Assembly: GCA_016787785.1 (NCBI GenBank)
Contig: JAEUTO010000010.1
Location: 372,001 to 436,000, forward strand
From: Bacteroidia bacterium
Lineage (GTDB): Bacteria > Bacteroidota > Bacteroidia > B-17B0 > Aurantibacillaceae
DNA length: 64,000 nt
Reading direction: 5' to 3'
Shown here: positions 41,979-50,043 of the stretch, piece by piece
Position numbering within the stretch: position 1 is the stretch's first letter
Layout of the letters: every line of letters starts with the position of its first letter
Translations under genes and position numbers: made by a program
Notes under the pieces: generated by a model
Database searches by the model: none
What the model was told of the DNA's origin: nothing
What the model saw: only the letters and a program-made list of their open reading frames with translations

Positions 41979-42036
41979 TTTGTTTGTAAATATACTTGTT
42001 GAAATGTATAAATTATAATTATATTAGTTGTTTATT

Positions 42037-45000
42037 TTGAAGCTCTTAAAATATATATTTTCAGTATTAGCCCTTATTATTGCAGGTAGTTCTTATTCGC
42101 AGCAACTACGCTTTAAGCACATTACAAATGAAGAGGGTTTAAGTACTAACTACGTTACCTCCATTATGCAGGATGATAAGGGATTTATGTGGTTTGGCAC
42201 GCAGGATGGTCTTAACAAGTATGATGGGTATGGCTTTACTATTTTTAAGAACGATCCTACCACGTTGCAATCGCTTTCAAGTTCTGAAATTACCTGTTTA
42301 AAACAATTGCGAACCGATCTTATTATCGTTGGAACCCGTGATGGTATTAATTTTTTTAACCCCATAACGTTACAATTTACTAGGTTAAACACGGTAAAAG
42401 GTACGAATGTTAAGATCAATGCTATTGCAGTGATGAATAACGACAATATAATTTTAGGGAGTGACGATGGTTTATTTTCTGTAAATATTTCTACCAAGGC
42501 GGTTAAACGCTATGAATTTCCGATAGAAGGACAAGTAAGTATAAATTGTATTAAAGAAATTAATGGTAAATTTTTTCTTGGCACGAAAGAAAAAGGGTTA
42601 TGGCTTTTTTCAAATAATAAGTTAGAGAGGGTAAATTTTCTTAATCCAAATTTATTTGATTTCAAACCAATAGATCTTGAGTCGATCAATTGTTTGCAGG
42701 AGTATGCCGGAAAAATTTACGTTGGAACAAATAAATCGGGTATTTTTAAGATTGATAGTGATACTTATGAAGTAGAAGATAAAATTTTATTTACCGATAA
42801 GCCTGACAATACTTTAAACAATATAAATTATTTTATCATAAATGGTAACAGGTTATACACTGCCACCAATTATGGTTTTGTTATTTATAACTTACTTTCG
42901 GGCAAAATAATAAATAACGAAAACAAGGAAAGTTCAAATCCTTTCAAGATAAATGATAACCTTATTAAAACTGTTTTTTTAGATAATCAGGGTAATTCCT
43001 GGTTGGGAACTCAATTGGGCGGTATTAACGTTTCTTTTTTTCGTTCAATAAAATTTCCGGATGTTGAAGATGATAAGCAACATCAATTTAAAAATCTTTA
43101 TGCTTTTTATGAAACAAAAAATAAAGAACGCATTATTGGTGGTGAGAATATTTTTGTTTTTATGGATAAGAATGGTCAGGTAACAGATCATTCTGATATA
43201 TTGGATGATAACAGTGTACTATCTATTTATGAAGAACATAGTAATACTTATTGGTTAGGCACTTGGGGCATAGGGTTATTGCGTTTTGACAGGGCAACAA
43301 AAACAGTAAAAACAATTATCGATAGAAAACTTGGAGGAACTGTTTTGTGCCTCAAAGGCGATGGAAACGGTAATTTGTTTGTTGGAACCTTTGGAGATGG
43401 TTTATTTAGAGTTAATTTAAAAACTTTGGAAGTAAAACACTTTGGTACAAAAGAAGGTTTACCTAATTTGAATATCAATACCATTTTTAAAGATTCTAAA
43501 GGAGTGGTATGGATCGGTACCTACGACGGTGGTCTGTTAAAACTAAAAGAGTTTCCCCTGGGAGACAAATTAAATATTGAACAAATTTATAAAAATGAAG
43601 GGAAGCCGGAGAATATTGCAACAAATATTGTATTCGGTGTAAATGAAGATAAGAATGGGAACATTTGGGTGGCAACTTCTGCCGGACTTAGTAAATATCT
43701 GCCAAACAAAACTTTTTATAATTTTTATGAAAAAGATGGTTTGCCTAACACCTATCTATATTCCCTCTTAAAGGATAGTGTAAATAATTTTTGGATGAGC
43801 TCCAATTATGGTATCATTAAGTTCGATCCTTTGCAAAAGGAAAACGAGATCGTTTTTAAAAGTTATGGTATTAAAGACGGTTTATTAAATACCGAGTATA
43901 ATGTGGGTGCCGCTTTTGTATCCCCATCGGGCACTATGTATTTTGGAGGTTCTAAGGGATATAATGTGTTTAGACCAACATTAATTAAAGATAACTTATT
44001 AGCTCCAAATTCTTTTATTACTGGTTATAAAAGAGGAGGAAAAGATATAAGTGTAGATTCTTTCATTGCCTACAAAAAATATTTAAAATTAAGTTGGCGG
44101 GAAAACTATTTTCAGTTTGAGCTCGCGGCTTTGGATTATACCGATCCGGCAAAAAATAAATTCAAGTACAAATTAGAAGGTTATGATAATGATTGGTCTG
44201 CCCCGACAAATGTGCGCTATGTGTCTTATACTGAATTGCCAGGGGGTGAATATAAATTTTTAGTTAAAGCAACCAATAACGATGGCGTTTGGAATGATAA
44301 TCCTTTTGAGATCACAATAGAAGTGGTACCACCATTTTGGAAAACCAAACTCTTTTATTTTTTACTCGTAATTTTTGCCGGCGGTGGTATTTATGCTTTT
44401 ACCCAATACAGAACCAGAGCTATAAAAAAAGAAAATAAGATCCTTGAAAATAAAGTGGCCGAGCGGACCCGCGAACTCGAAGAAAAAAATAACGATATCA
44501 CGAGCAGTATTGAGTATGCTAAACGTATACAAGAAGCTATTTTACCATCAAAAGACCAGATCTTTAAAAAGCTTAACAGAGCATTTATTCTTTATCAACC
44601 AAAAGATATTGTGAGTGGCGACTTTTATTGGTTTGCCGAAAAAAATGGCATAAAGATATTAGCTGTTGTTGATTGTACCGGTCATGGTGTGCCAGGAGCT
44701 TTTATGAGTATGATCGGCCATAATCTTTTACACCAGATCGTTTCCGAGAAAGGAATTACTGACCCAGCCGATATTTTAAATAATTTACATAAAGGCGTGC
44801 AAGAAGCTTTAAGGCAGGGGCAAAACGAAATTAATACCAACGATGGTATGGATGTATCTTTAATTACTATTAACGATACTACGAAGGAGGTAAAATGGGC
44901 AGGAGCTAACAGACCTTTAATTACGGTTGATTCTACCGGAGAATTCTTGAAATTTGATGGTAATAAATTTCCTGTAGGCGGCGCTCAACTGGATATAAAC

Positions 45001-45252
45001 CGCATGTTTACCACGCAGATAATTAAGTTAAAAAATCCGGCTATGGCCTATTTAACATCTGATGGTTATGCCGATCAATTTGGAGGCGACCGTGGTAAAA
45101 AATACATGGTAAAACGTTTCCACGATCTATTATGCACTATTCATTTGCATAGCCCCGAAGATCAAAAGAAGGAGTTAATGTTAAGTTTTAATCAGTGGAG
45201 GCAAAATCACGAGCAGGTTGATGACGTTTTGGTGGTTGGAATTGGAATTTAA
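42037..45252 (+). CDS. Reg_prop/Y_Y_Y sensor with SpoIIE-type PP2C phosphatase (SiaA-like role)
   Basis: About 1071 residues from a TTG at 42037, chosen because it gives MKLLKYIFSVLALI, a clean signal peptide; a TTG at 42028 adds three residues and no ATG fits. Two-component-regulator propeller repeats fill ~25-690 ('SIMQDDKGFMWFGTQDGLNKYDGY' type). A Y_Y_Y domain follows (~695-765), a transmembrane helix (~770-790), a coiled coil ('NKVAERTRELEEKNNDI') and a SpoIIE/PP2C domain (~850-1071) with metal-binding 'VVDCTGHGVPGAF' and 'DGYADQFGG'. It would dephosphorylate a target in response to a periplasmic signal. The SiaB- and SiaC-like genes at 46192 and 46776 make it the likely SiaA counterpart. 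Confidence 0.9.
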   Translation: MKLLKYIFSVLALIIAGSSYSQQLRFKHITNEEGLSTNYVTSIMQDDKGFMWFGTQDGLNKYDGYGFTIFKNDPTTLQSLSSSEITCLKQLRTDLIIVGTRDGINFFNPITLQFTRLNTVKGTNVKINAIAVMNNDNIILGSDDGLFSVNISTKAVKRYEFPIEGQVSINCIKEINGKFFLGTKEKGLWLFSNNKLERVNFLNPNLFDFKPIDLESINCLQEYAGKIYVGTNKSGIFKIDSDTYEVEDKILFTDKPDNTLNNINYFIINGNRLYTATNYGFVIYNLLSGKIINNENKESSNPFKINDNLIKTVFLDNQGNSWLGTQLGGINVSFFRSIKFPDVEDDKQHQFKNLYAFYETKNKERIIGGENIFVFMDKNGQVTDHSDILDDNSVLSIYEEHSNTYWLGTWGIGLLRFDRATKTVKTIIDRKLGGTVLCLKGDGNGNLFVGTFGDGLFRVNLKTLEVKHFGTKEGLPNLNINTIFKDSKGVVWIGTYDGGLLKLKEFPLGDKLNIEQIYKNEGKPENIATNIVFGVNEDKNGNIWVATSAGLSKYLPNKTFYNFYEKDGLPNTYLYSLLKDSVNNFWMSSNYGIIKFDPLQKENEIVFKSYGIKDGLLNTEYNVGAAFVSPSGTMYFGGSKGYNVFRPTLIKDNLLAPNSFITGYKRGGKDISVDSFIAYKKYLKLSWRENYFQFELAALDYTDPAKNKFKYKLEGYDNDWSAPTNVRYVSYTELPGGEYKFLVKATNNDGVWNDNPFEITIEVVPPFWKTKLFYFLLVIFAGGGIYAFTQYRTRAIKKENKILENKVAERTRELEEKNNDITSSIEYAKRIQEAILPSKDQIFKKLNRAFILYQPKDIVSGDFYWFAEKNGIKILAVVDCTGHGVPGAFMSMIGHNLLHQIVSEKGITDPADILNNLHKGVQEALRQGQNEINTNDGMDVSLITINDTTKEVKWAGANRPLITVDSTGEFLKFDGNKFPVGGAQLDINRMFTTQIIKLKNPAMAYLTSDGYADQFGGDRGKKYMVKRFHDLLCTIHLHSPEDQKKELMLSFNQWRQNHEQVDDVLVVGIGI

Positions 45253-45292
45253 CATTAGAATTTGGGATTTAAAATAATTTATTATATTTGTC

Positions 45293-45300
45293 TAACTTTA
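45293..45300 (+). promoter_or_regulatory. Candidate -7 box before the lipoprotein-SiaB-SiaC genes
   Basis: TATATTTG lies 10 bases before the ATG at 45311, in the 58-base gap after the phosphatase gene. If real, the three downstream genes can be expressed apart from the phosphatase. The leader would be very short. Confidence 0.4.
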
Positions 45301-45310
45301 AATTTTCAAC

Positions 45311-46186
45311 ATGAAAAAAGCATATAAAATAGTTTTAGTATTAAGCTGTGTTACATCTTTATTTTTTGTAGGCTGTCATAAAAAAGAAACCGTAGAAGTG
45401 GATAATGAGACCCAATCTTCAGTTGACAACGCAGTGGCTGATCAAGAGTACATGATGATCGTTCCGGCAACTAACGGACATGCCATTAATACTAAAGGTA
45501 CAGGATCTAATAATGGTAGATTAATGTCGCCACCAGCTTGTGACACTTTAACTTGGTTAAATAGAACAACTGCCGATACTACATTAAACGCTAACAATAA
45601 ATATCTTGTGCCACCGGTTTATGAATTAAATCTTTTACCAGTTGCTTGCCCGGCTTCTTTTACCGATGGAAAAGTAAGAACCGGAAAATGGAATATCAGA
45701 ATTACCGGACCTTTAAAACTAGTTGGTAGCCAAATGATCTTAAAACTGATCAACCACAAAGCCTCTGGTATAGGTTATTCTTGCGATAGTATGGTAGTTA
45801 CAACGTTAGCTACAACATCTATAAGCTCTACTTTTAATATTAAATTAATTAACGGAGTTTGTTCAAGCCCAAATTGGACCATCAAATACAGCTTTGACAG
45901 AACTTTTACGAATTATGGAAAAGGTAACCCTTCAGGAACAGACCCTGTTGTTGAAGTATTTGGTACCGCAAACGGTGTTAACCGTGTGGGAAAAGCTTTT
46001 TCGGTTAATATACCACAAGCATCGCCGTTAATTAAACATAAACAATGTCAATATATTGATAAAGGAATATTAGAACTTACACCAGAAGGTTTCAAAACAA
46101 GGACCGTGGATTTTGGAAACGGTACTTGCGACGATGACGCCACATTTACCGTTAACGGAAGCACAGTAGCATTTAAATTGAAATAA
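45311..46186 (+). CDS. Lipoprotein of the Sia-like locus
   Basis: 291 residues with lipobox 'LFFVGCHKK' (Cys22). A linker rich in Asn, Gly and Thr (~30-75) leads into a beta-rich domain with 'DGKVRTGKWNIRITGPL' and a closing 'TVDFGNGTCDDDATFTVNGSTVAFKL'. Members of this type are common among Bacteroidota lipoproteins; the role is unknown. The lipoprotein at 62207 is a paralog ('SGKNRTGQIKYEV', 'NKPTSGTIEH'). It ends five bases before the SiaB-like kinase, so the two are probably co-translated. That suggests an extracytoplasmic component of the signalling system, which is inference. Confidence 0.75.
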   Translation: MKKAYKIVLVLSCVTSLFFVGCHKKETVEVDNETQSSVDNAVADQEYMMIVPATNGHAINTKGTGSNNGRLMSPPACDTLTWLNRTTADTTLNANNKYLVPPVYELNLLPVACPASFTDGKVRTGKWNIRITGPLKLVGSQMILKLINHKASGIGYSCDSMVVTTLATTSISSTFNIKLINGVCSSPNWTIKYSFDRTFTNYGKGNPSGTDPVVEVFGTANGVNRVGKAFSVNIPQASPLIKHKQCQYIDKGILELTPEGFKTRTVDFGNGTCDDDATFTVNGSTVAFKLK

Positions 46187-46191
46187 CCCGA

Positions 46192-46764
46192 ATGGAAATG
46201 CTGACAGACCGAAAAATGGTAGATGTTTTTGATATATATGATAAAATGGAGCGAAATAATATTTTGCTTTCATTTAAAGGGGAAATTACATCAGACCTTC
46301 TAACCTCTATTCTTCAGATAATGGAGAATAAGATGGAAAACATGCAGGAAGAACCGAAAATGAAAAAGAAGGTTTACAATGTATTGGTAGAGTGTTTGCA
46401 GAATTTATATCACCATTTAGACGATTCTTCTAATTTTACCGGAGATAATAATCGCTCGGCTATTTTTATGATCGGTAAACTTGACGGAAAATACTCTATA
46501 TTTACGGGCAATTATATCCTTAATGAGAATATAAATGGCCTTAAAAGGCGTTTGGACGAAGTAAATTCATTATCAAAAGAAGAACTTAAGGAATACTATA
46601 AAAAAGTGCTTAATAACGGCGAAATGTCGTTAAAAGGCGGAGGCGGATTAGGGATGATTGATATAGCCAGAAAAACTGGTGAAAAATTAGAGTACGATTT
46701 TTTGGAAATTGACAATAAAGTTTCTTTCTTTACACTCAATATAAAAGTATCACAACAAAATTAA
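46192..46764 (+). CDS. SiaB-family protein kinase
   Basis: 190 residues, cytoplasmic. The fold is GHKL-like, with an N-box-like helix 'VLVECLQNLYHHL' (Glu67, Asn71) and a Gly-rich lid 'GGGGLGMIDIARKTG' (149-163). In Pseudomonas aeruginosa SiaB phosphorylates SiaC, and SiaA reverses this. The SiaC-like gene starts 11 bases downstream with the expected target threonine, and the SpoIIE phosphatase lies upstream. A second Met codon at 46198 is a possible start. Assignment to the family is strong by context and length. Confidence 0.85.
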   Translation: MEMLTDRKMVDVFDIYDKMERNNILLSFKGEITSDLLTSILQIMENKMENMQEEPKMKKKVYNVLVECLQNLYHHLDDSSNFTGDNNRSAIFMIGKLDGKYSIFTGNYILNENINGLKRRLDEVNSLSKEELKEYYKKVLNNGEMSLKGGGGLGMIDIARKTGEKLEYDFLEIDNKVSFFTLNIKVSQQN

Positions 46765-46775
46765 AAATTACAATT

Positions 46776-47156
46776 ATGGACAAATACGCTATCGAAGGCA
46801 CACCAAAAACACCAAGTATCAGTTTTGACTTAAATGGTGGAATTTTAGAGATCAAGGGACGTTCTATTCCTGAGAATTCTATTGAATTTTATAAACCTTT
46901 AGTTGATGCACTGGATAAATATTCTAGCGCTGCAAAAACTGCTACAACTGTTAATGTGCAGTTGGAGTATTTTAATACATCATCTTCAAAATGCATCTTA
47001 GATGTATTTAAGAAGTTAGAAGGTATTAACAAGGGTGGTAGCGCTGTAACTATTAACTGGCATTATGAAGAAGATGATGAGGATATGTTAGAAGCTGGTG
47101 AAGATTACCAAGCCATCATCAACGTGCCATTTAAGATGGTAATGGTTAACGAATAA
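46776..47156 (+). CDS. SiaC-family phospho-target protein (DUF1987)
   Basis: 126 residues. 'GTPKTPSISFDLNGGILEIKGRSIPENS' at the N-terminus and 'VQLEYFNTSSSKCILDVFKKL' in the middle are the DUF1987/SiaC signatures. Thr68 in 'YFNTSSSK' falls at the same number as the threonine phosphorylated in P. aeruginosa SiaC. There, unphosphorylated SiaC binds and activates the diguanylate cyclase SiaD. No GGDEF protein is in this window, so the target here must be another protein. The gene closes the module and is followed by a terminator at 47181. Confidence 0.88.
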   Translation: MDKYAIEGTPKTPSISFDLNGGILEIKGRSIPENSIEFYKPLVDALDKYSSAAKTATTVNVQLEYFNTSSSKCILDVFKKLEGINKGGSAVTINWHYEEDDEDMLEAGEDYQAIINVPFKMVMVNE

Positions 47157-47180
47157 TATTTTAGTTTTCTAAATATATTA

Positions 47181-47205
47181 CCCTGCCGGTTGGCGGGGTT
47201 TTTTT
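47181..47205 (+). terminator. Terminator after the Sia-like module
   Basis: Stem CCCTGCC / GGCGGGG (one G-T pair) with loop GGTT, followed by seven T's, 24 bases after the SiaC-like stop. Confidence 0.85.
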
Positions 47206-47308
47206 GTTATATGCCGGGGGCGATCTTTTTTTTAAAAATACAAATAATAATTGCTTTCCATTACTGCATTACTCCCCGTTTTTTTATAAAAAACTCAAGT
47301 ACTTTCTG

Positions 47309-47337: not shown

Positions 47338-48393
47338 ATGACAACCAAAATAGTAGAATTATTAGGCAGTAATGCCAACGATTTGTTAAACCATACCTGT
47401 AAAACAATTTCTAAAGAACACCTTCATTTACCTGGTTATGATTTTGTAGATCGCATGTTCTCACCTTCTAACCGCAACCCGCAAGTACTAAGAAGCTTAA
47501 ACCAGTTATATAATAACGGAAGATTGGCGGGCACCGGTTACATGAGTATTTTGCCAGTTGATCAAGGAATTGAACATAGCGCGGGTGCAAGTTTTGCACC
47601 AAATCCTATTTATTTTGACAGCGAGAACATTGTTAAACTGGCAATAGAAGGTGGTTGTAACGCTGTTGCTTCAACCTTTGGTGTGTTGGCTTCCGTTTCG
47701 AGAAAGTACGCTCATAAAATACCCTTTATTGTAAAGATTAATCATAACGAATTCTTAACCTACCCAAACAAATTCGATCAGATCATGTTTGGTTCGGTGG
47801 AAGAGGCTTGGAACATGGGAGCTGTAGCGGTAGGAGCAACAATTTATTTTGGCTCGCCAGAGTCTTCCCGTCAGATAGTTGAAGTAGCACAAGCATTTGA
47901 AAGAGCTCACGAGTTAGGCATGGCAACCATTTTATGGTGCTATACGCGTAACAATGCCTTTAAAAAAGATGGTGTTGATTACCATACAGCTGCAGATCTT
48001 TCGTCGCAAGCAAACCATTTAGGTGTAACTATACAAGCAGACATCATAAAACAAAAACTGTCCGACAAAAATGGCGGATATAACGCTATTAACTTCGGTA
48101 AAACACATCCAAAAGTTTATTCAGAGTTAACTACAGATCATCCAATAGATCTTTGTCGTTACCAGGTTGCTAATTGCTATATGGGCCGCATGGGCTTAAT
48201 TAACAGTGGCGGCGAAAGTAAAGGTGCAAGCGATCTTTCTGAGGCTGTAACAACTGCCGTAATCAATAAAAGAGCGGGTGGTCAGGGTTTAATCAGCGGA
48301 CGAAAAGCATTTCAGAAACCAATTGCAGAGGGTATTCAGTTGTTGAATGCCGTGCAAGATGTGTATTTGGATAAATCTATAACTATAGCATAA
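47338..48393 (+). CDS. fbaB: Class I fructose-bisphosphate aldolase (DhnA/FbaB type)
   Basis: 351 residues. It splits fructose-1,6-bisphosphate to the two triose phosphates using a Schiff-base lysine. The sequence follows the E. coli FbaB pattern: '[17 protein letters not shown]', '[12 protein letters not shown]', '[10 protein letters not shown]', '[14 protein letters not shown]' (region of the active-site lysine), '[14 protein letters not shown]' and '[17 protein letters not shown]'. It acts in cytoplasmic glycolysis and gluconeogenesis. It stands between a terminator and accD, and no other glycolytic gene is near. Confidence 0.95.
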
Positions 48394-48470: not shown

Positions 48471-49316
48471 ATGGGTTGGTTTAAAAGATTAAAATCAGGT
48501 ATTACAACTTCTACTAAAGAGAAGAAGGAAACTCCTGAAGGATTATGGTACAAGTGCCCTTCGTGCAAAAAAATAAATACAGCCCAGGAACATGCCGCCA
48601 ATAAATACGTTTGTGTTGAGTGCGCACATCATGAGCGTATAGGTAGTAAAGAATATTTTGAAGTTATTTTTGACGATAACCAATTTACTGAGCTTAACGA
48701 AAATCTTGTAAGCGGCGACCCGCTTGACTTTACAGATACAAAAAAATATACCGACAGGTTAACCGATACTATTAAAAAAACCGGTTTAAAAGACGCATTA
48801 AGAAGTGCTTATGGCCAGGTTAACGGTAACGATCTTGTTATTTGTTGTATGGATTTTTCTTTCATAGGCGGCAGTATGGGAAGCGTTGTGGGTGAAAAAA
48901 TTGCCCGCTCCATTGATTACTGTCTTAAAACAAGAACGCCTTTGCTTATCATTTCAAAAAGTGGTGGTGCACGTATGATGGAAGCTGCTTTTTCTCTTAT
49001 GCAAATGGCAAAAACATCTGCAAAATTAAGTCAGTTAGATAAAGCCGGCATCCCTTACATCTCTTTATTAACCGACCCTACAACGGGTGGTGTTACCGCA
49101 AGTTATGCTATGTTAGGTGATCTTAACATTGCAGAGCCGGGTTCATTAATCGGTTTTGCGGGGCCGCGTGTTGTTAAAGAAACCATTGGTAAAGATCTTC
49201 CAAAAGGATTTCAAACTGCCGAGTTTGTATTAGAGCACGGTTTCCTCGACAAAATTATTCCACGTACAGAGCTAAAAGATAAGCTTGGCGCGCTTCTTAA
49301 AATGTTCAAGAGTTAG
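48471..49316 (+). CDS. accD: Acetyl-CoA carboxylase, carboxyltransferase beta subunit
   Basis: 281 residues. With AccA it moves the carboxyl group from biotin to acetyl-CoA, giving malonyl-CoA for fatty-acid synthesis. The N-terminal zinc ribbon is complete (Cys29, Cys32, Cys48, Cys51 in 'CPSC' and 'CVEC'). The crotonase-fold core has '[18 protein letters not shown]', '[21 protein letters not shown]', '[15 protein letters not shown]' and '[13 protein letters not shown]'. The length is normal. accA is not adjacent. A (TTTATAA)4 array precedes it and a good terminator follows. Confidence 0.97.
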
Positions 49317-49377: not shown

Positions 49378-49491
49378 GCTCATTCATTCATACGATTCAC
49401 TCTATTTTACTGATTTTTAACAACTTACATTATTAAGTTTACCCAACTTTTGCTTAACTTTAAACGTATAATATATAGAGAAATACCATCT

Positions 49492-50043
49492 ATGAACGTT
49501 ACTCCCGAACTTATTGCAATGTGCGTAAAGCAGGATCGCAGGGCGGAGTATGAACTCTACAAAGTATCGTATAGTTATTTGATGAGTATTTGCATGCGAT
49601 ACAACAAAGATAAAGATACAGCCTCAGAAATTTTAAACATGGGGTTCCTAAAAATTTTAAAAAACATAAGTACGTATAAAACTGAGATTCCTTTTAAAGT
49701 TTGGATCCGCCGGATAATGGTGAATACTTTAATTGATGAATACAGAAAACAAAAACGCGAAAAAGAACGCGTTACCTATGTTGATGAATATTACGACTCA
49801 TCTGATTACGCAGAGGTGAACGATGCACTAAGTAACATTAGCTGCAAACAAATTTACGACGAGATAAATAAATTACCACAGGCAACAAAGCAAGTATTTA
49901 ACTTGTATGTTATCGATGGATATTCGCACAAAGAGGTGGGCGAAATGCTTGGCATCAGCGAAGGAACCTCTAAGTGGCATTTGAACGCAGCAAGAGAAAA
50001 ATTAAAAGAACAAATAGGGAAAAATATATTAATTAGAGTATAA
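49492..50043 (+). CDS. ECF-type RNA polymerase sigma factor
   Basis: 183 residues from the ATG at 49492; a TTG 14 codons upstream gives an unlikely basic extension. Region 2 (~15-85) contains 'ELYKVSYSYLMSICMRYNKD', 'EILNMGFLKILKNISTYK' and 'FKVWIRRIMVNTLIDEYRK'. Region 4 (~120-178) contains 'LPQATKQVFNLYVIDGYSHKEVGEMLGISEGTSKWHLNAAREKL', a helix-turn-helix. It directs RNA polymerase to a small regulon. The next gene, nine bases downstream, encodes a membrane protein with a short cytoplasmic N-terminus that may hold the sigma factor inactive. Confidence 0.93.
   Translation: MNVTPELIAMCVKQDRRAEYELYKVSYSYLMSICMRYNKDKDTASEILNMGFLKILKNISTYKTEIPFKVWIRRIMVNTLIDEYRKQKREKERVTYVDEYYDSSDYAEVNDALSNISCKQIYDEINKLPQATKQVFNLYVIDGYSHKEVGEMLGISEGTSKWHLNAAREKLKEQIGKNILIRV

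Follow-up and report, generated by a model that had tools for sequence, protein, structure and literature searches.

A SiaABC-type partner switch from an order of Bacteroidia that is without diguanylate cyclases, and an ABCG-type exporter as its proposed target

What might a SiaC-type partner switch control in a bacterium that encodes no diguanylate cyclase? The sole SiaC output found described is such a cyclase, in Pseudomonas. The question is raised by a stretch of 64,000 nucleotides from a Bacteroidia bacterium (family Aurantibacillaceae; assembly GCA_016787785.1, contig JAEUTO010000010.1, positions 372,001 to 436,000), that whole stretch being described here as ‘the window’ and its host genome as G000. 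Within the window lies a cluster of genes which, by sequence comparison, is a SiaABC-type partner switch, i.e., a phosphatase, a SiaB-family kinase, and a SiaC-family phosphoprotein, along with a lipoprotein. Its output very likely is something other than a GGDEF enzyme. The main target of SiaC instead is, with a probability of roughly 0.55, an exporter that joins a TerB-like domain to an ABCG-type transporter, a proposal that is based on what is seen in relatives.

The cluster occupies one strand, with the phosphatase gene followed by a 58-bp gap, the lipoprotein gene, a 5-bp gap, siaB, an 11-bp gap, and then siaC (Table 1). An original prediction, made from the sequence alone, had named these four genes, and family matches indeed confirm all four in the places given for them. 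That prediction had seen in the first gene a Reg_prop/Y_Y_Y sensor with a SpoIIE phosphatase domain, larger than SiaA, and both points are borne out by matches to Reg_prop (E 1.9e-27), Y_Y_Y (2.4e-18) and SpoIIE (1.7e-15), and by a length of 1,074 residues versus the 658 positions of the SiaA model, NF038263. The reading frame spans 42028-45252 and has two possible starts, 42028 and 42037, one of them TTG. Residues 796-1071 match the SiaA model at 4.9e-55, which is under that model's whole-protein cut-off, and alignment with 6k4e_A (9.9e-35) places the motifs SGDFY, DCTGHGVPGA, DGYADQ and DD in register with SiaA, with the metal-binding aspartates expected of a PP2C/SpoIIE phosphatase present as well. 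Residues 3-770, in turn, match PDB entry 4a2l (phmmer, 5e-78).

The kinase matches the SiaB_fam_kinase model above cut-off (2.2e-50) as well as PDB entry 6kko_A (phmmer, 2.9e-17), and carries both the catalytic glutamate and the glycine box. Among 153 SiaB reading frames, that glutamate is found in 150, and G149, G150 and G152 of the glycine box in 141, 144 and 145, respectively. The phosphoprotein matches PF09345 (3.4e-43) and aligns ungapped with 6kko_C (1.4e-19), NTSS over NTSS, which puts its Thr68 at P. aeruginosa Thr68, that is, at the phosphosite, as had been predicted. Residue 68 is threonine in 153 and serine in nine of 162 SiaC reading frames (this set and the SiaB set are redundant, some genomes having been reached by two routes). 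Fourteen SiaC residues that contact SiaD are named in PMC8457831, and the window's SiaC is identical to P. aeruginosa at four of these, all within the Thr68 loop. Only that loop of the named SiaD-binding surface has been kept, a finding that agrees with a change of partner without establishing one. As a marker of output, these contact residues were rejected, because the SiaC proteins of two genomes in which a cyclase is the partner (G124 and G132) likewise differ from P. aeruginosa at most of the fourteen.

The case for a non-GGDEF output starts with the host genome, which is 4.6 Mb in 16 contigs, is listed as 100% complete, and gave no GGDEF match in a PF00990 search that was positive in 8 of 14 control genomes. 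It extends to the order, as represented by 65 genomes from one family and 10 genera. All 65 carry SiaC, in one to 13 copies each and 286 in total, whereas GGDEF is matched in one, there as a 118-residue frame with an internal stop. A diguanylate-cyclase output thus very likely is absent order-wide, with SiaC acting on something else. The original prediction, which had proposed just such an output without naming a target and had noted the lack of a GGDEF gene, is supported to that extent; a GGDEF gene elsewhere in the genome, which would have counted against it, was looked for and not found. Its further remark, that enzymes of cyclic di-GMP (c-di-GMP) metabolism are uncommon in the phylum, fails for the phylum but holds for the class: Of 148 genomes drawn evenly from across the phylum, 80 have GGDEF, just one of these (G036) being from the class. 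SiaC is found in eight of the 148. The four from the class, i.e., G000, G044, G048 and G145, all fall outside the GGDEF-positive 80, and the four from elsewhere (G078, G108, G124 and G132) all fall within it. The output might nonetheless be conventional were the target a diverged cyclase that the Pfam model misses, and PF00990 was indeed the sole model used for cyclases. The same model, however, found GGDEF in 8 of the 14 controls and in over half of the phylum draw while finding but one broken frame in the order, and a missed cyclase therefore is scarcely probable.

What recurs beside SiaC in the class is instead a protein of about 1,020 residues, consisting of a TerB-like N-terminus, a strand domain, an ABC ATPase, and an ABC2 membrane domain. 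The transporter portion is readily recognized (ABC_tran, 1.5e-30; ABC2_membrane, 2e-18). An ATP-binding domain precedes the membrane domain and ABCG proteins are the closest relatives, hence ‘ABCG-type’. TIGR00955 is matched at 3.1e-76 over residues 256-792, though below cut-off, and the top Foldseek matches, from 4.5e-12 on a poor model, are ABCG2 and ABCG5/G8. TerB is matched in nine of 10 members with E-values allowed up to 5, the best being 4e-8 and that of a host copy, on contig C4, being 2e-4, just below cut-off. The second N-terminal domain is a predicted beta-sandwich, with strands at residues 153-230, for which FHA is matched weakly and in one of 10 members (E 0.064), with the Mek1 FHA region at 0.3. 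VIA-align rows mostly cover residues 250-861 and have little bearing on the N-terminus.

Exporter and SiaC go together across genomes. A profile of the exporter N-terminus (A3), with strong matches defined as those with E below 1e-60, is strongly matched in four of the 148 phylum genomes, and these are precisely the class genomes that carry SiaC (Fisher 3.6e-6, phylogeny ignored); weak matches in two others (3.8e-6 and 8.5e-5) come from frames of 257 and 277 residues. Within the order, 62 of 65 genomes are positive, the remaining three (G190, G195 and G207) being drafts of 330 to 720 contigs. The two genes can be close as well. Named loci number 80, which are the best 80 of 572 confirmed matches among the matches listed, one of which (L181) yielded no SiaC reading frame. 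In 12 of these 80 the exporter gene is convergent with siaC at 37-526 bp, with distances of 3.1-4.1 kb in four more, and in G044, G048 and G145 it lies 51-91 bp away. Phosphatase, SiaB, SiaC, exporter and lipoprotein genes are all co-directional in G048 (L117) and G145 (L118). Similarly, SiaB, SiaC, exporter, and a lipoprotein of the same family are co-directional at nine places in eight order genomes (L240-L248), with a SpoIIE gene leading six of these operons (L240, L244-L248) and a second SiaC-domain gene intervening between siaC and exporter in seven, i.e., not in L240 or L243. These nine belong to 20 exporter stretches chosen from A3 match tables, nine of them for a nearby SiaC, and hence are not a random sample. 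In L241 and L242, proteins of 374 and 377 residues fuse the exporter's N-terminal module to SiaC, the exporter profile being matched at 5e-20 and 9e-13 and SiaC at 8e-35 and 2e-32, respectively. SiaC-domain proteins of similar length, their N-termini unmatched, are seen in L244-L246. As to placement, the fusion genes (L241:7525-8649 and L242:8140-9273) sit between siaC and the exporter gene.

Does the window's own SiaC participate in this association? The host has two exporters, one on contig C1, 5.9 kb from a pair of SiaC and tandem-SiaB genes (L030), and the other at C4:344665-347742 (L239). An unrooted exporter tree contains one bipartition, of support 0.996, which places the C4 copy with exporters abutting core siaB-siaC, and the C1 copy with those of L240-L248 and L117/L118 and with the SiaC-less extras L256-L258. 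The SiaC proteins adjoining exporters of the first side share 68-79% identity with that of the window (12 pairs), versus 32-46% for the second (15 pairs), a split that speaks for joint duplication of exporter and SiaC. Across these 27 pairs exporter and SiaC distances correlate (r 0.62, permutation p 1e-4), a correlation to which genome relatedness contributes and for which a degenerate SiaC, L248_11, was swapped for the adjacent canonical L248_10. The C4 copy is 48-60% identical, and the C1 copy 43-47%, to the exporters of L179, L193, L200, L201, L205, L206, L211, L216 and L217, with 46% versus 42% seen for L215. As the C4 copy is the nearer to exporters that abut core siaB-siaC, the link of the window's SiaC to it is one of orthology rather than of position.

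A number of observations weigh against the exporter as target. The matching C4 copy lies outside of the window, at a distance of about 71 kb from its siaC, and the order's core SiaC cluster is not beside an exporter in the loci fetched. No exporter was found within 600 bp in 68 of the 80 named loci, a figure to which contigs that end early, and short fragments that evaded clustering, may contribute. Seven exporter loci (L239, L252, L254, L255, L256, L257 and L258) are without SiaC in the stretch fetched, as is L253, which is cut by a contig end, and in both G048 and G145 three exporter matches stand against a single SiaC. Phylum co-occurrence stands on four positive genomes, and the SiaC tree is weakly supported at many nodes. 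Lastly, the full-length exporter model is poor, with a mean predicted local distance difference test (pLDDT) score of 57.6, though about 70-87 over most of residues 1-240, and for that reason no structural detail is claimed.

How would such a switch operate? A periplasmic signal, perhaps by way of the lipoprotein, would act on the Reg_prop/Y_Y_Y sensor, which would thereby set the activity of the SpoIIE phosphatase. SiaB would phosphorylate SiaC at Thr68, and the phosphatase would take that phosphate off. By analogy with P. aeruginosa (PMC7647112, PMC8457831), phosphorylation of Thr68 should block binding, with dephosphorylated SiaC binding its effector through the Thr68 face. That effector would be the ABCG-type exporter, with SiaC docking on the module of TerB plus beta-sandwich domains and so gating export. 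Phosphorylation by SiaB, exporter binding, the direction of control, and use by the window's SiaC of an exporter 71 kb off are what I infer here from the comparisons above. The part of the lipoprotein in sensing is a guess: It has no family match at E 0.001, solely NlpE (0.025) and ClfB (0.071) at E up to 0.1, and no recognized fold in a fold search (model pLDDT 81, top PDB match at E 0.052).

Outside of the class, SiaC appears to have other partners. In G124 and G132 (L121, L122) a protein consisting of a stalk and GGDEF follows siaC, in G108 a 188-residue protein does, and in G078 a soluble histidine kinase does so directly (L119:8091-9155). BLAST with filters off gives 49% identity, over 83 residues, between the N-terminal 112 residues of that kinase and the G124 cyclase stalk, and the kinase's KITRISDSTQ was aligned by eye to SiaD 77-86, where SiaC-touching residues include K77, V78, R80, I81, S82, D83, R84, Y85 and Q86 (PMC8457831). 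Given that identity and that match, one docking stalk seems to be common to cyclase and kinase. A by-eye pattern of SiaD contact residues picks out only these two proteins among reading frames of the loci fetched with their neighborhoods. When the stalk by itself was searched against the PDB with phmmer, SiaD (7e6g) was not among the matches; the whole G124 GGDEF protein does match it, over residues 45-252 at 1.3e-28. The stalk-bearing kinase suggests that outputs can be swapped by moving the stalk to a new enzyme. The chances are about even that SiaC is, more generally, a reusable docking adaptor, one that docks outside of the class on cyclase or histidine-kinase stalks and that in the Bacteroidia branch controls an ABCG-type exporter in a manner gated by phosphorylation, switch and exporter having been inherited together, duplicated together, and fused.

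From a different perspective, core SiaC might be a general hub, dephosphorylated by many phosphatases and acting on several effectors, e.g., a histidine kinase or anti-sigma protein, with the exporter as one client. The host genome indeed has 64 SpoIIE domains to eight SiaC genes and five SiaB domains. One HATPase_c_2 match is in a short frame (139 residues), the other 11 being in longer ones, and one STAS match is in a short frame (142 residues), the other being in a frame of 548. The G078 kinase with its SiaD-like stalk would also fit a hub, as would a fusion of SiaC to Mrr in G188. Nevertheless, a SpoIIE gene is directly beside four of the eight SiaC genes and within three genes of two more, which argues for dedicated pairs, and a hub accordingly is considered to be unlikely, although to be taken seriously. 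As observations in their own right, 64 SpoIIE domains in 4.6 Mb is a very large phosphatase repertoire, and the G188 fusion (L093:9720-10622; Mrr_cat restriction endonuclease, 5.4e-21) keeps the threonine and adjoins a gene for a 543-residue protein that is SIR2-like by eye, a defence use of SiaC being possible.

The neighborhood of the cluster (Table 1) supplies two further candidate targets. The arrangement of phosphatase, lipoprotein, SiaB and SiaC is unbroken in 32 of the 43 core loci fetched from the 65 order genomes (22 were unfetched, and L093, with its non-core SiaC, is excluded), and in 37 of these 43 an aldolase gene follows siaC on the same strand. SiaC might then control adjacent metabolic enzymes, i.e., the aldolase or the AccD-like protein, and the P. 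aeruginosa system does respond to carbon supply (PMC7647112). A terminator-like hairpin, however, stands after siaC in 28 of the 37 loci (none in the other nine, and in none of the 37 gaps when shuffled once each), and among the 80 named loci aldolase adjacency is confined to SiaC proteins at least 87% identical to the window's, all of which makes a metabolic target improbable. Switches of phosphatase, kinase and STAS protein classically act on sigma factors, and SiaC is structurally like anti-sigma antagonists (PMC7647112), so that the target might instead be a sigma/anti-sigma pair, such as the sigma-like gene found third downstream in a subset of loci, together with its neighbor. Two metabolic genes and a terminator nevertheless intervene, the arrangement is restricted to part of the order, and this too is considered to be quite improbable. 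Upstream of the lipoprotein gene, a promoter-like motif may drive lipoprotein, siaB and siaC as a unit.

Table 1. Features of the window in and around the switch cluster (window coordinates).
Feature	Position	Strand	Basis or remark
SpoIIE/PP2C phosphatase with SiaA-like C-terminus and periplasmic Reg_prop propeller plus Y_Y_Y	42037..45252	+	Family and structure-sequence matches
Transmembrane helix and coiled coil of the phosphatase	inside 42037..45252	+	By eye
Promoter-like motif, TTTG-N18-TATATTTG	45261..45290	+	Read by eye; resembles the Bacteroidota promoter consensus
Lipoprotein, beta-rich	45311..46186	+	VGC lipobox by eye; cluster member conserved in the order
SiaB-family kinase	46192..46764	+	Glu67 in register with Glu61 of P. 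aeruginosa SiaB
Codon of SiaB Glu67	46390..46392	+	
SiaC-family phosphoprotein, STAS-like switch protein	46776..47156	+	
Codon of SiaC Thr68	46977..46979	+	Predicted phosphosite
Intrinsic terminator, 8-bp stem and T tail	47180..47207	+	Closes the operon 3' of siaC
DeoC/LacD-family aldolase	47338-48393		Read here as a class I fructose-bisphosphate aldolase
AccD-like protein	48471-49316		By eye
Extracytoplasmic-function (ECF)-sigma-like gene	49450-50043		By eye

Additional genes were noted around the exporter loci. A family of lipoproteins of about 300 residues and families of secreted proteins of about 140 residues accompany the exporter (L239:12329-13692, L241:11744-13119); these have no Pfam or NCBIfam match at E 0.01 and are candidate partners or cargo. 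The exporter gene and a SiaB/SiaC pair flank the gene of a protein of about 1,500 residues that has no Pfam match (L030:11315-15883; L249:3946-8442). CheR- and CheB-like genes, so read by eye, are upstream of the operons of phosphatase, SiaB, SiaC and exporter in L117:2359-3784 and L118:13360-14791. There also are tandem SiaB proteins, with two kinase domains per chain, at L030:10042-11172 (376 residues, by domain search) and L115:4720-5814 (364 residues, by eye).

If the exporter is indeed the target, then partner switching gates a membrane transporter, a lineage without c-di-GMP cyclases times export through a SiaABC switch, and there is a way into a 64-domain SpoIIE repertoire. The idea of DUF1987 proteins as modulators of adjacent proteins had appeared in print in 2021 (PMC8457831). 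With the switch present in every examined genome of a cyclase-less order, and with the exporter link, a DUF1987 family noted for being widespread gains a target that can be tested. Searches made largely in open-access literature, on SiaC and SiaB families, on SpoIIE switching in Bacteroidetes/Bacteroidota, and on TerB with ABC and FHA in Bacteroidetes, showed no study of this system among the papers listed.

Various known systems nevertheless are similar in part. In E. coli the STAS protein MlaB regulates the ABC protein MlaF, i.e., a small STAS-domain protein acts on an ABC transporter, which is a precedent for what is proposed here (PMC7367683). MlaFEDB differs, however, in being a phospholipid transporter of another type. 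MlaB is not known to be part of a phosphatase/kinase switch. In mycobacteria, the putative ABC exporter Rv1747 has FHA domains and is modulated by a Ser/Thr kinase, PknF, whereas the beta-sandwich here matches FHA weakly and is preceded by a TerB-like domain. PknF is a classical, i.e., Hanks-type Ser/Thr kinase. Hybrid two-component sensors of the Reg_prop/Y_Y_Y kind (PDB 4a2l) are alike in their periplasmic part but have a histidine kinase as output rather than a SpoIIE phosphatase. The SiaC-SiaD-like pairs of G124 and G132 share a PP2C-SiaB-SiaC operon, but there a stalk and GGDEF protein follows. With SiaABCD of P. aeruginosa, lastly, the window shares the PP2C phosphatase, the SiaB kinase with its glutamate, SiaC with Thr68, and the order of phosphatase, kinase and then SiaC, while differing in that its host is without SiaD, in that a propeller sensor replaces the HAMP receptor, and in possessing an extra lipoprotein gene. 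As far as the searched literature shows, this is not a new kind of switch but a known switch with a new output.

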